A DNA stretch of 64,000 bases from Woeseiaceae bacterium (GTDB lineage Bacteria > Pseudomonadota > Gammaproteobacteria > Steroidobacterales > Woeseiaceae), in assembly GCA_021773055.1 (NCBI GenBank), contig JAJFKV010000039.1:1-64000 (forward strand), given 5' to 3'. The translations under genes were made by a program, and so were the position numbers. Shown piece by piece: positions 39,161 through 45,575 of the stretch (its first letter is position 1; every line of letters begins with the position of its first letter). The notes under the pieces are model-generated. The model worked only from the letters and a program-made list of their open reading frames with translations, searched no databases and had not been told where the DNA came from.

Positions 39161-40606
39161 TCAAATCTCATCGGTGCTGATACCCAGTGCCGTTGCAACG
39201 CCCTTGCCATACGCCGGATCTGCCCTGGAACAATGTCGAATATGACGTAGCTGGATTTCTCGCGGTGCACCGCCGACAGAGCGCGCGGTATTTTCAAACA
39301 ACACCTGCTGTTGCGTTTCGCTCATTTGTCGAAACAATATACCGGGTTGAGAAAAATAGTCCTCGTCTTCACGATGATTCCAGTGTGCGGCCGCGCCAGA
39401 AAGCTCAAGTGGCGGTTCCCTGTAGTCCGGTTGTTCGGCCCACTCACCCTGGTTGTTTGGCTCATATCCGATCGTACTGCCGTGATTACCATCGACTCGC
39501 ATGGCGCCATCACGATGATAGTTGTTCACAGGACAACGCGGGGCATTAACCGGGATCAGGTTGTGATTGACGCCCAGGCGGTAACGTTGCGCGTCGCCGT
39601 AGGAGAACAATCGGCCTTGCAGCATCTTGTCCGGCGAGAAACCGATGCCCGGTACTACGCTGGCGGGATTGAACGCCGATTGCTCGACCTCAGCGAAAAA
39701 ATTCTCCGGATTACGATTGAGCTCGAACTCTCCGACCTGGATCAAAGGATAGTCTTCGTGAGGCCATATTTTTGTGAGGTCGAAGGGGTTGTATGAAACA
39801 TCTCCCGCATCTGCCTCCGGCATGATTTGTACGGCGAGGGTCCACTTTGGAAAGTCTCTATTTTCGATGTTGTCGTAAAGGTCACGTTGATGGCTTTCTC
39901 GATCCTGGCCGACCAACGTCTCCGCTTCAGCATCGGTCAGGTTCTTGATGCCTTGCTGCGACTGGAAATGAAACTTGACCCAGCTACGCTCGTTATCCTT
40001 ATTGATGAAGCTAAAGGTATGACTACCAAAGCCGTGCATGTGTCGATAGGTTGCGGGGATGCCACGATCGCTCATGACGATAGTCACCTGATGCAATGCC
40101 TCGGGCAACGAGGTCCAGAAGTCCCAGTTATTTTTCGCGCTGCGTAGATTCGTACGCGGGTCACGTTTCACCGCATGATTAAGATCGGGAAACTTCATGG
40201 GGTCACGCAGGAAAAACACCGGTGTGTTGTTGCCAACGAGGTCCCAGTTACCTTCCTCGGTGTAGAACTTCAACGCAAACCCACGAATGTCACGTTCCGC
40301 ATCTGCGGCACCGCGTTCACCGGCGACCGTGGTAAAACGAGCAAACAGATCAGTCTTCTTGCCGATCTCAGAGAATATTTGCGCGCGGGTGTGTTTGGTG
40401 ATGTCGTGGGTCACCGTGAAAGTACCGTACGCGCCGGAGCCCTTGGCGTGCATGCGCCGCTCGGGGATGACTTCTCGATCGAAATGGGCAAGTTTCTCCA
40501 GGTACCAGACGTCCTGGAGCAGTTGTGGGCCTCGCGGACCCGCCGTCATCACATTCTGGTTGTCGGCAACCGGACAACCGGCATTTGTGGTTAGTTTCTT
40601 AGTCAT
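39161..40606 (-). CDS. katA: Monofunctional haem catalase
   Basis: Hydrogen-peroxide dismutating catalase of 481 residues, small-subunit type. Distal His53 in RRMHAKGSG, the Asn in [11 protein letters not shown], and the proximal haem Tyr in [14 protein letters not shown] are present. ATG at 40606 is preceded by GAGGAC; six codons further upstream lack such support. Cytoplasmic by lack of signal. Divergent from oxyR with a 145-base shared region, a classic OxyR-regulated arrangement. About 180 bases downstream (38980-39160) hold no gene. Confidence 0.95.
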
Positions 40607-40662
40607 GTTCGTTAGTCCTCGCAATATTCATGAGCCAAAACAGGGCTGAAAGCGTGCTGTTG

Positions 40663-40691
40663 TTGACTACTGTGCGTGAACCTCGAATAAT
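40663..40691 (+). promoter_or_regulatory. Sigma-70-like promoter for oxyR in the divergent katA-oxyR region
   Basis: TTGACT (40663-40668) and AATAAT (40686-40691) are separated by 17 bases, a good sigma-70 fit, oriented towards oxyR. The next about 50 bases are AT-rich with repeated ATTCGATT/AATCGATT-like sequences (40711-40735) that could form the OxyR operator shared with katA. The operator is inferred from context, not from a full consensus match. Confidence 0.45.
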
Positions 40692-40751
40692 CATCCAATG
40701 AATAATAATTCGATTCATAATCGATTCAGTCGATAACGCTTATTGGCAATC

Positions 40752-41651
40752 ATGAACCCGAGTCCCACCTTCAAGCAACTGCAGTACCTGGTCGCCTTGT
40801 CCGAGCAGCTCAATTTTACGAGAGCGGCAGAATTGTGCTTCGTTACTCAGTCAACGCTGAGCGCAGGCCTGAAAGAGCTGGAACGGCTACTCGGCACCCA
40901 ACTCCTGGAACGAGACAGGCAAACCGTTTTGATGACACCCCTCGGGGCGGAGGTTGCCGAACGTGCGCGGGCTATTGTGACTGCGACGATGGATTTGGCC
41001 GATCACGTGGCCGCCGCACGGGAGCCAATGACGGGCTTGCTGCGACTTGGTGTGATTCCGACCATCGCGCCATTCCTGCTTCCACAATGCCTGAAACTCC
41101 TTCGTAAACACTATCCGGAGCTGCGTCTGGCTTTGCGAGAGGACTTGACGGCTAACTTGCTGTCACGCATGGAAGATGGACAACTCGACTTCGCACTGAT
41201 TGCCCTGCCGTATGACACCGCCAACTTGTTGGTGGAACCTCTTTTTGACGATGACCTGGTGGTCATAGGTCGGAAGGGAGACCCGGCAATGGAAAGAGAA
41301 ACGATCACCGTCACACAGTCTCTCACTGATCGCTTGCTGCTACTCGAAGAGGGGCACTGCCTGCGTGATCACGTCTTGTACGCGTGCAACGCATCAAACC
41401 GCGATTCGTCATCCGGGATGGAGGCTACGAGTCTTCTGACATTAGTACAAATGATTGAGTCAGGCCTGGGTCTCGGGCTGGTTCCGGAAATGGCCGTATC
41501 GAGCGGTCTAACTGAAAGCGCAAACCTGGTTTCTCGGCCAACTGCCAAGCCCTGTCCCAAGCGCACCATTGCGCTCGTGGCACGGCGCTCCACCTCACGA
41601 TTGATCGTCTTGCGGGCAGTTGCTGACCTGATAAGAAGCACCAAAGCCTGA
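40752..41651 (+). CDS. oxyR: OxyR, peroxide-sensing LysR-type activator
   Basis: LysR regulator of 299 residues: winged helix-turn-helix at residues 5-60 and effector domain with the OxyR redox pair Cys203 and Cys212 in EEGHCLRDHVLYAC, the same nine-residue spacing as E. coli Cys199/Cys208. Oxidation to a disulfide activates catalase and related genes. ATG at 40752 is preferred to the TTG at 40743. Divergent from katA, which fits. A second protein with the same Cys pair lies at 58059-58994. Confidence 0.94.
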   Translation: MNPSPTFKQLQYLVALSEQLNFTRAAELCFVTQSTLSAGLKELERLLGTQLLERDRQTVLMTPLGAEVAERARAIVTATMDLADHVAAAREPMTGLLRLGVIPTIAPFLLPQCLKLLRKHYPELRLALREDLTANLLSRMEDGQLDFALIALPYDTANLLVEPLFDDDLVVIGRKGDPAMERETITVTQSLTDRLLLLEEGHCLRDHVLYACNASNRDSSSGMEATSLLTLVQMIESGLGLGLVPEMAVSSGLTESANLVSRPTAKPCPKRTIALVARRSTSRLIVLRAVADLIRSTKA

Positions 41652-41703: not shown

Positions 41704-42309
41704 TCAGGCCGGTTCAATAGCCGCCTGCGTTGCTTTGCACAAAGCGGGCAACACCGATTTCGCAAACCACGGGTTCTTCTTGAGCCAGATGTTGTTTCTC
41801 GGACTTGGGTGCGGCAGAGGAAAAATACCCGGCGCATAGTCCTGCCACGCACGAACGGTCTCGGTCAGGTTCCTTTGAGTACGCGGCAAGTGCCACTTCT
41901 GTGCGTATTGGCCGATGACAAGCGTTAATTCAATTTGTGGGAGATGTTGCAACAATTGCCTTCGCCAGGCCTTCTCGCACTCGGGCCTTGGCGGAAGATC
42001 GCCCGATTTTCCCGTGCCGGGATAGCAGAATCCCATCGGGAGGATCGCGACTTTTGTTGCGTCGTAAAATTGTTCTCTTGAGATTCCCAACCATTCTCGC
42101 AGCCTTTCGCCACTCGGGTCGTCAAATGGCACGCCACTTTCATGGACACGCCGACCAGGAGCTTGTCCGGCAATCAGGATCGTCGCCCGAGGATCCAACT
42201 GCACAACAGGTCGAGGACCCAGGGGAAGAAATTCCGCACACAATCGGCACCGCCTAACGGACTCGAGCAGCTCGGCGAAGGTCGGGTCGTCCGACTCTTC
42301 ACGGCTCAT
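41704..42309 (-). CDS. Uracil-DNA glycosylase superfamily protein
   Basis: Protein of 201 residues with the glycosylase motif 1 in LIAGQAPGRRVHESGVPFDD and motif 2 in PLPHPSPRNNIWLKKNPWF. The N-terminal RRCRLCAEFLP has a C-x-x-C, but the usual four-cysteine Fe-S set of family 4/5 enzymes is not evident. It probably removes uracil or a related base, or is a non-catalytic relative. Starts within the 3' end of the AraC-type gene (11-base overlap), so likely co-transcribed with it. Confidence 0.8.
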   Translation of the reverse strand: MSREESDDPTFAELLESVRRCRLCAEFLPLGPRPVVQLDPRATILIAGQAPGRRVHESGVPFDDPSGERLREWLGISREQFYDATKVAILPMGFCYPGTGKSGDLPPRPECEKAWRRQLLQHLPQIELTLVIGQYAQKWHLPRTQRNLTETVRAWQDYAPGIFPLPHPSPRNNIWLKKNPWFAKSVLPALCKATQAAIEPA

Positions 42310-43237
42310 TTTGTGATCGCCTCAGCTCGTTCGGTGTGCAACCGTAGCGGCGACGGAACGCCTTGCTTAGCGTTCGCGCCGACGCAAAGCCCGTGGCATC
42401 GGCAACGTGGTCGAACGGCGTGGCGGAATACTTGATCAGGTTATGTGCTTTCATGAGCCGCCAGTCTGCGATGTAGGCCATCGGGGCAATACCGACAACT
42501 TCCTGAAATCGCCGAACCAGGGTGGCCCGTGACATTCCCACTCTTTCGCCAAGCGATGCGAGTGTCCAATTGAATTCCGGCTCCTGATGAATCAGCATAA
42601 GCGCGCGGTAAACCCGCCGGTCACGAAGCGCAGCAAGGAAGCCGGATGCTTCTTCATTCTCGCGAACGTAATGGTTAAGAAGTTGCAGAAACAGCACTTC
42701 GGTAAGTCGATCAGCAATGCGGCTGCCGAGATTCGGACTGCCCTGCATTTCAGCGTCAATCAGCTTCACGACAGACCAGATAGGACCGGCTGATTCGAGC
42801 ATTGAAAAGTGCATCATCTCGGGTAGTGCATCGAGGATGGGGTGTGTTGCCCCCTGATCAAAATGCACCATGCCGCACATGAGGCGATTCGTTATCTGCC
42901 CTTTTTGAAAAAGCCGGTTGCCGAGTTCACAAGCCTTGCCCGCTCGCGTACTGGGGACCAGTTCGCGACCGGCCTTGTCGGCTATCCAGTGAGAACCCCC
43001 ATTCGGCAGCATGATGATGTCCGCCTCTTCAGCCTTTACAGCATCGTGGGTGTCGGAGCCAACAAAACACTCTCCGGACAACATCATATGGAAACGAGGA
43101 GTTCCCATTTCCGACAGGGACATGCCCCAGGGTGCTGCCAGGTCTGAGCGAAAGAATATCGAACCCCGGAATCGCAAGGTTTCAAGAATGTCACCAAGCA
43201 CGTCAAATTCTGGTCCCTGATTGAGTCGCTCAGACAC
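42299..43237 (-). CDS. AraC-family regulator with cupin sensor domain
   Basis: Regulator of 312 residues: N-terminal cupin (about 10-190; FHMMLSGECFVGSD, IIMLPNGGSHWI) and C-terminal double helix-turn-helix (WTLASLGERVGMSRATLVRRF; HVADATGFASARTLSKAF). Cytoplasmic. Divergent from the cytochrome P460 gene with only 104 bases between the starts, so it is the obvious candidate regulator of that redox operon. A GATCCTCCT on the plus strand shows the GGAGGATC ribosome site before its ATG. Confidence 0.88.
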   Translation of the reverse strand: MSERLNQGPEFDVLGDILETLRFRGSIFFRSDLAAPWGMSLSEMGTPRFHMMLSGECFVGSDTHDAVKAEEADIIMLPNGGSHWIADKAGRELVPSTRAGKACELGNRLFQKGQITNRLMCGMVHFDQGATHPILDALPEMMHFSMLESAGPIWSVVKLIDAEMQGSPNLGSRIADRLTEVLFLQLLNHYVRENEEASGFLAALRDRRVYRALMLIHQEPEFNWTLASLGERVGMSRATLVRRFQEVVGIAPMAYIADWRLMKAHNLIKYSATPFDHVADATGFASARTLSKAFRRRYGCTPNELRRSQNEP

Positions 43238-43341
43238 TCGATTGATCCTCCTGGGTACACAGATTCAAGGCGCTGTCTCCCATGATTCGTTGCATCACTA
43301 ATCGCGCACCGCTTGGCGCGCAATGAACAGATGGGAGATTC

Positions 43342-43968
43342 ATGATGCTCAAGAGCAAGACCATATTATCCGCAGCTTCCAAGGCTATGTTCGGGCTAAT
43401 ACTAGCAGTCGTCGCGGCGAGTGCCGTGGCCGAGGAGTATTTCACGATTACCGATGGCCTGTTGGAACGTCCGACCGGGTATCGCGAGTGGGTGTACGTC
43501 GGCACACCGGTTACACCGAATGACTTGAACGACGGTAAGGCTGCGTTTCCCGAGCATCACAATGTCTACATCGATCCCGAGAGCTGGGCGCACTGGAAAA
43601 AGGCCGGCGAGTTTCGTGAGGGCACTATTCTTATGAAAGAGCTGGTCAATGTTGGATCGAAAACCGCCGTGAGCGGCAATGGCTATTTCCAGGGAGACTT
43701 CATTGGTCTGGAAGCCACTATTAAGAGCAAGAAACATTTTCCGGATGAGCCTGGCAACTGGGCCTACTACAGCTTCTCTACGCCAGAGCATAAGACGCTG
43801 ACGACAGAGGCCAGGGCGTTTCCGGCAGCGGCGTGCAACGGCTGCCACGCTGGCGCCGCGGCGGATGACTTCGTCTTTACCCAGTACTACCCCGTATTGC
43901 GCGAAGGCAAGGCGGCCGGCGAAGACGCGACCGGCGGCAAGAGTGACTTGCTCGCTTCAAGGAAGTAG
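43342..43968 (+). CDS. Cytochrome P460 family protein
   Basis: Exported c-type haem protein of 208 residues: signal peptide to ASAVA, a P460 beta-sheet domain (GYREWVYVGTPVTPNDLN, FREGTILMKELV, NWAYYSFS) and the haem-attachment motif CNGCH at 165-169. Biochemically studied P460 proteins oxidise hydroxylamine, and relatives (cytochrome c'-beta) bind NO. The special Lys cross-link cannot be assigned by eye. GGGAG precedes the ATG. First gene of a three-gene cytochrome operon, 2 bases before the next. Confidence 0.88.
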   Translation: MMLKSKTILSAASKAMFGLILAVVAASAVAEEYFTITDGLLERPTGYREWVYVGTPVTPNDLNDGKAAFPEHHNVYIDPESWAHWKKAGEFREGTILMKELVNVGSKTAVSGNGYFQGDFIGLEATIKSKKHFPDEPGNWAYYSFSTPEHKTLTTEARAFPAAACNGCHAGAAADDFVFTQYYPVLREGKAAGEDATGGKSDLLASRK

Positions 43969-43970
43969 AC

Positions 43971-44516
43971 GTGAATCATATCCAGAAGGTGGGTTTCACG
44001 TTGATCCTTGCAGTACTTTCGTTCTCGGCCGGCTCAATCGCCACGGAGCCCGGGAAGAGCTCAGGAACAGCGGTAGACGACGCATATGCCGCGAAACTAT
44101 GGACGTACATGCTCGAGAATAGGTTGATTGGAGAAAATCGTGTGCGCAGCTTCCCTTTCGTCGGGTCACGACCCCACGGCAGTATTCAGGAATTTATTGC
44201 GACGGAAGCGACTATCGATGGGCAGAAAGGCCGGCTGCTCATTAAGCATAACTATGGTGCGGAAGAGAAGCTGACGCCAAAGGAAGTTTACGCGGCGGAC
44301 CATGATGAATACTCCGAACCACTTGCGATAATGTTTCAAAGGGAGGATGGCTACGATCCCGTCAATAGCAACTGGTTCTGGGCCGAATACAACCCGGACG
44401 GCTCAGTCCTCAACTATCAAGGAGCCAATCTATCCGGCCGCTCGCCATTGTGTCTCGGCTGTCATACGCCGCTCGGCGGCAAAGACAGGGAAGTTCTGAA
44501 CGGCATTGCGAAATAA
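43971..44516 (+). CDS. Monohaem c-type cytochrome, P460-operon partner
   Basis: Exported protein of 181 residues: signal peptide (to about GSIA), C-terminal haem motif CLGCH at 161-165, and before it DPVNSNWFWAEYNPDGS, a segment seen in several P460-like c-type proteins. The haem being at the extreme C-terminus, as in the upstream P460 protein, suggests the two are distant relatives or fold alike. GTG start 2 bases after the previous stop. Probable electron acceptor or second sensor unit of the operon. Confidence 0.78.
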   Translation: MNHIQKVGFTLILAVLSFSAGSIATEPGKSSGTAVDDAYAAKLWTYMLENRLIGENRVRSFPFVGSRPHGSIQEFIATEATIDGQKGRLLIKHNYGAEEKLTPKEVYAADHDEYSEPLAIMFQREDGYDPVNSNWFWAEYNPDGSVLNYQGANLSGRSPLCLGCHTPLGGKDREVLNGIAK

Positions 44517-44535
44517 AACAAGCCGGAGAAAACGG

Positions 44536-45066
44536 GTGAGAAGACGGCTGCACTGGTGCATTGTGGTCAGCGTAGTAGTCGCGTACGGATCCGCCTATTA
44601 CAGAGACTGGTTCACGACACAATCAGAATCGGCCAACTGGTACCTTTTGGTCGTGCATATGAATGTCGGTGTACTCATCTTCGCATTGAGTACGCTGGCC
44701 CTCGTTGCACGACGTAATTCATCAAAGACTTCCACGCGAACGCATTCTAAGTGCATCCGAACTCTCTCTCGGACGATGCATTACACTCTGTACCTTATGT
44801 CGTTCGCGTTACCGATCACTGCGTACATAGGAACTGGTTTTGATCTCCCTCTACTCGGACTAACAAATTTACCAGGCCTTATGCGGTTTGAAAACGTTCA
44901 GACCTTCGTGCAGGAAGATCTGCATATGTTGATGATCACGTTCATGGAGCCATTCGCAGAATTCCATCGTCATATCGGCGCCACTCTTATCTTGCCGGTA
45001 TTGCTTGCAGGCCATGTGGCCGCCGCGCTTTATCACGGCTTCGACTATGCTCCAGCTGCTCGGTAA
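44536..45066 (+). CDS. Cytochrome b561-type membrane protein
   Basis: Inner-membrane di-haem-like cytochrome b of 176 residues with four hydrophobic segments. Candidate haem ligands: His in RRLHWCIVV, VVHMNVG, LSRTMHYTLY and the AGHVAAALYHGF end. This is the bacterial b561/cytochrome-b fold that passes electrons between quinone and periplasmic partners. GTG at 44536 is chosen because GGAGAA lies 8 bases upstream; an in-frame TTG at 44506 would overlap the cytochrome c gene. The 3' end overlaps the opposing NrtS-like gene by 22 bases. Confidence 0.8.
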   Translation: MRRRLHWCIVVSVVVAYGSAYYRDWFTTQSESANWYLLVVHMNVGVLIFALSTLALVARRNSSKTSTRTHSKCIRTLSRTMHYTLYLMSFALPITAYIGTGFDLPLLGLTNLPGLMRFENVQTFVQEDLHMLMITFMEPFAEFHRHIGATLILPVLLAGHVAAALYHGFDYAPAAR

Positions 45067-45575
45067 CGATAACGCCGATACGAGATAACTTGGGATAGTT
45101 CCGCGAACAGCAACGGAAGCACAAAGGCCTGGCCCAGAGACACGACGGACACCGCCGCGAAATCTCCCGAACGCAAGAGCACGTCGGCTAAAACCAACCC
45201 TGCGTTCAAGCTGCCGAAAGCCAGCCCGATTAACACGGCTCTTGCTGGAATCCCGTGTGAGACTGCAGTGGCCATAACGCGTTCCGGAGTTGCGGGTGCG
45301 CTGTGACCGACGGAATCCAGATACGCTCGACGTAGCCCCGCAATCTGCGAGATGGTAACTACACCAAAGGGTAGTCCGAACACCAGTATTACCTGCAGAA
45401 TCTCCACCGGCTCGTTACCAAAGACCGAGCCGGATTGATTGATCAACGTCAATATGCTGCCAATAATGATCGCGAGGATGGTCGCACGAACAAAAATGCT
45501 GCGGTCTACCAACGACAACCAGCCCGATTCGCGTGGCTGAAACTTTCCTTCTTCGTATCCTGTTGTTGTGGTCAT
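45045..45575 (-). CDS. NrtS-like membrane protein (two fused repeats)
   Basis: Membrane protein of 176 residues. Residues about 28-73 (FVRATILAIIIGSILTLINQ ... EILQVILVFGLPFGVVTI) match the short NrtS nitrate/nitrite-transporter type. A second similar half follows (ARAVLIGLAFGSLNAGLVLA ... LGQAFVLPLLFAELSQV), so the protein looks like an internal duplication of a two-helix unit. ATG at 45575 is preceded by CAGGAG. Transport role is by family name only. A 26-bp element shared with the NmrA promoter sits 99 bases upstream. Confidence 0.65.
   Translation of the reverse strand: MTTTTGYEEGKFQPRESGWLSLVDRSIFVRATILAIIIGSILTLINQSGSVFGNEPVEILQVILVFGLPFGVVTISQIAGLRRAYLDSVGHSAPATPERVMATAVSHGIPARAVLIGLAFGSLNAGLVLADVLLRSGDFAAVSVVSLGQAFVLPLLFAELSQVISYRRYRYRAAGA

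Follow-up and report, generated by a model that had tools for sequence, protein, structure and literature searches.

A stretch of 64,000 nucleotides from the genome of a Woeseiaceae bacterium (contig JAJFKV010000039.1, positions 1 to 64,000; hereafter the window) carries a cytochrome P460 gene followed by the genes of a partner cytochrome, called CYTX here, and of a b561-type membrane cytochrome, with a cupin-AraC regulator gene reading in the opposite direction (Table 1). We give about even chances to the reading that this unit is a periplasmic operon directed against nitrogen-oxide stress (hydroxylamine, nitric oxide (NO)), to which methionine-sulfoxide repair is attached in some relatives. 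This reading was built from sequence, namely gene order, residue sets, fold and co-occurrence. Within it, we infer that hydroxylamine or NO is the substrate, that the partner traps NO or relays electrons, and that b561 couples the chain to the quinone pool.

Haem proteins of the operon

The genome that holds the window is a draft in 89 contigs, with 89% completeness and 5.6% contamination. A preliminary description, made from the letters of the window alone, had proposed five genes: AraC, P460, a second cytochrome, b561 and an NrtS-like gene. All five were found where it had placed them, and both coordinates and Pfam matches agree with the operon-like arrangement of the three cytochrome genes beside a divergent cupin-AraC gene. 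The gaps between P460, CYTX and b561, all on the forward strand, are 2 and 19 bases, given the GTG start of b561. This start better fits the Colwellia homologues, and the listed TTG overlaps the upstream gene. In the intergenic region shared by the two divergent units, a consensus scan found no sigma-70-like site. The promoter and terminator scan gave counts close to those from shuffles, and an Rfam scan of the window at gathering level gave no matches.

Table 1. Genes and intergenic region of the P460 unit (window positions)
Feature	Position	Strand	Evidence
Cupin_6/AraC-type regulator	42299..43237	-	PF12852 E 6.7e-33, PF12833 E 1.7e-21
Intergenic region between the divergent units, presumed to hold the regulator site and promoters	43238..43341	.	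position only
Cytochrome P460, N-terminal signal-like stretch, CNGCH haem site, Lys99/Glu124/Phe69	43342..43968	+	PF16694 E 5.6e-27
Partner cytochrome CYTX, divergent, P460/c'-beta fold, CLGCH, Lys92, Ala at aligned carboxylate position	43971..44516	+	
Cytochrome b561-type membrane cytochrome	44536..45066 (GTG start; listed TTG 44506)	+	PF01292 E 6.1e-15
NrtS-like gene, 176 aa	45045..45575	-	remote NrtS resemblance

The P460 protein scored 95 bits in the Pfam scan, for a PF16694 cut-off of 27, and matched solved cytochromes P460 over most of its length at E values of 1e-57 to 1e-60 (6e17, 6amg, 2je2). Besides the PF16694 domain and a C-terminal CxxCH, it has the cross-link lysine, the distal carboxylate and the capping residue: Lys99, Glu124 and Phe69 align with Lys106, position 131 and Phe76 of the cytochrome P460 of Nitrosomonas sp. 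AL212 (NsP460), position 131 being Glu in its A131E mutant. In a 2025 review (PMC11928373), these three features are the ones studied for hydroxylamine oxidation, Table 2 ties lysine and distal carboxylate to activity, and the A131E mutant of NsP460 is described as oxidising NH2OH. A homologue search found 3454 proteins; among the 120 matches listed, for which residues were scored, Lys and Glu were kept in all 120 and Phe in 119. The fetched loci, some of them overlapping, hold 25 P460 genes, of which 24 have the Lys and 20 the Glu. The P460-type haem protein of the preliminary description is thus confirmed, complete with the residue set needed for hydroxylamine oxidation, in which it is probably active. 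It is a clear homologue (E ~1e-60) of NsP460 and of the cytochrome P460 of Nitrosomonas europaea (NeP460). All three share the cross-link lysine, the capping phenylalanine and the CxxCH, and the glutamate is as in NeP460. Unlike these two, the window gene adjoins an AraC gene, a second P460-fold gene and a b561 gene, and its host is a marine gammaproteobacterium.

The second cytochrome had been recognised by its C-terminal haem site (CLGCH), which holds; that it has a P460 fold of its own had been missed. The window CYTX matches PF16694 at an E value of 0.0012, below the Pfam cut-off, and 51 of the 52 members of its family match this model. A fold match and the C-terminal CxxCH place it with the P460/c'-beta proteins. 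CYTX has 100 further homologues at E ≤0.001, and a sequence search for solved relatives found none. Lysine occupies the cross-link position (Lys92) in 52/52 members, which sets CYTX apart from cytochromes c'-beta, defined by the lack of this lysine. The aligned carboxylate position holds Thr in 35/52 and Ala in 17/52, in a weak alignment, which departs from the hydroxylamine-oxidising cytochromes P460. As judged from these alignments, CYTX is a divergent P460/c'-beta-fold protein that has the cross-link lysine and lacks the carboxylate. It appears to resemble the "halfway house" P460 proteins, although it is distant in sequence from NsP460, which is one of them. The review (PMC11928373) calls the function of the "halfway house" proteins unresolved, and is intrigued that the two kinds of protein occur together in some organisms.

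The b561 membrane cytochrome, likewise proposed at the outset, was upheld by its Pfam match and by several histidines kept across four aligned sequences, the window protein and three from Colwellia or near kin.

Gene order in relatives

Neighbourhoods were tabulated for 16 loci, the window and 15 fetched loci, in which P460 scored at least 225 bits; the weaker loci L006, L024, L025, L030, L032, L033 and L036, as well as L039 and L040, stand outside this table. Four of the 16 (L018-L020 and L037) come from Colwellia or near kin, so that the loci are not independent events, and L018-L020 were found via CYTX, which biases the counts towards partner and b561.

An AraC homologue was divergent from P460 in 12/16 loci; in genome G036, a different AraC-type gene lay upstream of P460 on the same strand. 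A partner followed P460 directly in 11/16 loci, six times CYTX and five times a member of another subfamily, P460b. The b561 gene was present in five of the six CYTX loci (in L020 seen only as an open frame of 81 aa) and in none of the ten others. MsrB genes, missed by the preliminary description, followed the operon in 7/16 loci from four lineages (G010, G068, G407, and Colwellia with near kin), and the five that were scanned all matched SelR. An MsrA-type gene accompanied six of these seven; G407 has a glutaredoxin/reductase fusion instead. The order AraC / P460 / CYTX / b561 / MsrB / MsrA / second MsrA-type was seen in L019, L020 and L037, and L018 has one MsrA-type gene. Without L018-L020, the 12 other fetched loci retain AraC in eight, CYTX in two, P460b in five, b561 in one and MsrB in four. 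The search for this gene order elsewhere, asked for in the preliminary description, was therefore positive: the order is kept in relatives, AraC / P460 / partner / b561 recurring in Colwellia, and the unit does not fail for want of conservation. The MsrB genes point to stress and repair. The gene at L027:8243-9550, which comes straight after MsrB in a P460 operon, encodes glutaredoxin fused to a pyridine-nucleotide-disulphide oxidoreductase.

Carriers of P460 are sparse. At E 1e-30, and counting the centre genomes, they amounted to 8/369 genomes in the class, 6/73 in the genus and 4/398 in the phylum, to 3/394 and 6/295 around Colwellia, and to 1/5 in the order of G068. This scarcity (the eight of the class include the window's own genome) and the variable tail of the operon are what one would expect of unrelated neighbours that nothing but chance or common ancestry has kept adjacent. 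We consider this very improbable, as P460 is accompanied in several families by AraC and another P460-fold gene, and two partner subfamilies fill the same slot.

P460 genes also occur in other settings. The genome of the window (G000) has a second P460 cluster on contig C69, at L006:8179-10786. It comprises a P460 (51%), a P460b-type gene, a gene for a dihaem cytochrome and a third P460-like gene, in which Phe replaces the Lys. Such clusters are found twice in G434 (L024, L025), and a putative sensor/response-regulator-like pair is divergent from them in L006 and L025. In the P460-like gene at L036:6038-6682, Met stands in place of the Lys and Thr in place of the Glu. Two proteins, P0102 and P0171, carry two tandem P460 domains in one chain, the second being partial in P0102. 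At L039:4762-5748 a P460 domain is fused to a cytochrome c domain, which hints at a natural electron acceptor. On plasmids, ten P460 records were found, all below 60% identity.

Nitrogen oxides, oxidants and electron flow

In the favoured reading, hydroxylamine, NO or oxidants made from them would cause the AraC protein to switch the operon on. P460 would oxidise hydroxylamine to nitrous oxide (N2O) or NO, the carboxylate-less partner would bind released NO and/or relay electrons, and b561 would pass the electrons to ubiquinone. MsrB and MsrA, where present downstream, would mend methionines oxidised by the same stress. Wild-type cytochromes P460 have midpoint potentials of -340 to -424 mV, according to PMC11928373, and flow towards quinone should therefore be favoured. 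The same potentials bear on the reverse scheme, in which quinol electrons would run outward via b561 to the two P460-fold haems and reduce NO to N2O. Mentions of NO reduction by cytochrome P460 and of NO binding by cytochrome c'-beta in that review speak for it, as do the many carriers with a NirS-like cytochrome d1 protein, a would-be NO maker. It is nonetheless improbable, ubiquinol being a poor donor at such midpoints and b561 being missing from 11/16 loci.

Co-occurrence with cytochrome d1 was scored by long (NirS-like) matches of at least 297 bits, in 17 of the 22 carrier genomes (E 1e-30); the five weaker P460 carriers G196, G400, G867, G1210 and G1398 were set apart. A long match was present in 12/17. 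In the genus, 42/73 genomes had one (46/73 at any strength), with 6/6 P460 carriers versus 36/67 non-carriers (Fisher one-sided p 0.031); one of the six, G434, has P460s of only 51-52%. Outside the genus, 11 carriers were tested: six had a long match, one a fragment, and four none or a weak one only. Five of the six hold three d1-type genes, the number expected for a nirS/nirF/nirN set. The genome of the window has one long d1 gene (L041:7029-9221), whose product of 730 aa has cytochrome c-type matches and which lies near genes for a NahK-like kinase and a haem-receptor-like protein and near ccoN; a d1 search of this genome found no second strong gene. The N-oxide detoxification chain of the preliminary description holds in part, the P460 residues and the d1 genes of 12/17 carriers lending it some weight.

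The operon may instead protect the envelope against oxidants or hypohalous acid, with an RclR-like redox-sensing AraC protein, a CybB-like superoxide:quinone b561, Msr repair, and the P460-fold pair acting as a peroxidase or radical sink. We regard this as rather unlikely, though several observations suit it. RclR (NF040475) is the best NCBIfam match of the AraC protein, which has Cupin_6 and an AraC helix-turn-helix like RclR and other Cupin_6 AraC regulators; two cysteines are conserved, C121 in 13/13 and C103 in 10/13 distinct genes (window included). Its score of 104 bits is, however, far below the cut-off of 400, so that it does not qualify as RclR, and unlike RclR it sits by a P460 operon. 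Similarly, the sole PDB sequence match of b561 is E. coli b561 (5oc0, E 1.1e-4), and in PMC9113575 CybB is called a superoxide:ubiquinone oxidoreductase, but the window protein resembles CybB only weakly, with 31 bits to the CybB equivalog model PRK11513 for a cut-off of 170. As in the bacterial b561 systems of CybB and LcoA-BcnA (PMC9113575), the window b561 is encoded beside a secreted partner; in the window, the partners are P460-fold cytochromes and not a lipocalin.

The same oxidant scheme would account for the MsrB genes (7/16 loci, SelR in the five scanned), for the glutaredoxin/pyridine-nucleotide reductase fusion of G407, and for a CMD (AhpD-like) gene that lies between P460 and MsrB in L026. 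Catalase and OxyR-like genes are found within 4.5 kb in the window, the latter scoring 207 bits with the OxyR model (cut-off 329), and a peroxidase-like activity of a cytochrome c'-beta is named in PMC11928373. The hydroxylamine-site Lys and Glu, invariant among the P460 homologues listed, and the d1 co-occurrence count against it. An oxidant component has MsrAB in its favour, together with the CMD gene of one locus and the catalase and OxyR-like genes close by. Nitrogen-oxide and oxidant stress are not mutually exclusive, because NO-derived oxidants damage methionine.

Several points weigh against the nitrogen-oxide reading. The carboxylate position of CYTX comes from weak alignments, and the profile-profile comparison of CYTX with P460 gave an hhalign probability of 3%, too weak alone. 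In one of the 16 core P460s (G426, L023), Ala replaces Glu; the remaining residue exceptions are matches below 200 bits. The d1 test in the genus is weak and ignores genome completeness and relatedness, and outside the genus, where the comparison covers carriers only, four lack a long match and a fifth shows a fragment. With its single long d1 gene, the window genome gives no proof of a full d1-haem pathway. The b561 gene, absent from most loci, occurs in 1/12 fetched loci once the three found via CYTX are set aside. Finally, MsrAB does not lie beside the window operon and fits oxidant stress equally.

Flanking genes and significance of the operon

The NrtS-like gene is convergent with b561, which it overlaps at 45045-45066. 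It does face the operon, as first described, and its identity as a nitrate/nitrite protein comes down to a remote resemblance to the transporter NrtS: when 30 family members were aligned, 16 matched the model NF038050, the best at E 0.006, and the window protein itself gave no match to it at E 10, which does not make it an NrtS. Its membership in the unit was rejected, as it was absent from the other operon neighbourhoods read, which were not searched with the gene itself. The 176-aa product belongs to a conserved unnamed family of membrane type, and its two halves look alike by eye. On the other side, a gene of the uracil-DNA-glycosylase superfamily (41704-42309) overlaps the AraC gene, and a homologue also lies beside P460 in L017 and L031. 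The catalase gene is divergent from that of the OxyR-like LysR regulator; the pair spans 39161-41651, which leaves 1.7 kb to the start of P460.

No description of the unit, that is of P460 with b561, AraC and Msr, turned up among the papers listed by searches of the open-access literature (subscription papers lay outside their scope). In the 2025 review (PMC11928373), P460 is treated mainly in ammonia and methane oxidisers, and the words operon, gene cluster and b561 are all absent. In the window, a P460 of the catalytic type and a carboxylate-less partner adjoin in a recurrent marine operon, which makes both the function of the "halfway house" proteins and their co-occurrence with the other kind testable. 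A two-part P460 machine, in which a catalytic P460 works with a cross-linked P460-fold protein that lacks the carboxylate and serves as NO trap or electron relay, is a tentative proposal that we think doubtful as it stands. If true, it would give the "halfway house" proteins a role, linked in some lineages to b561 and methionine repair. It would also add marine denitrifying bacteria that are not nitrifiers to the hydroxylamine-dependent sources of N2O; the P460 operon, with d1 in 12/17 carriers, is a possible N2O source of this kind.

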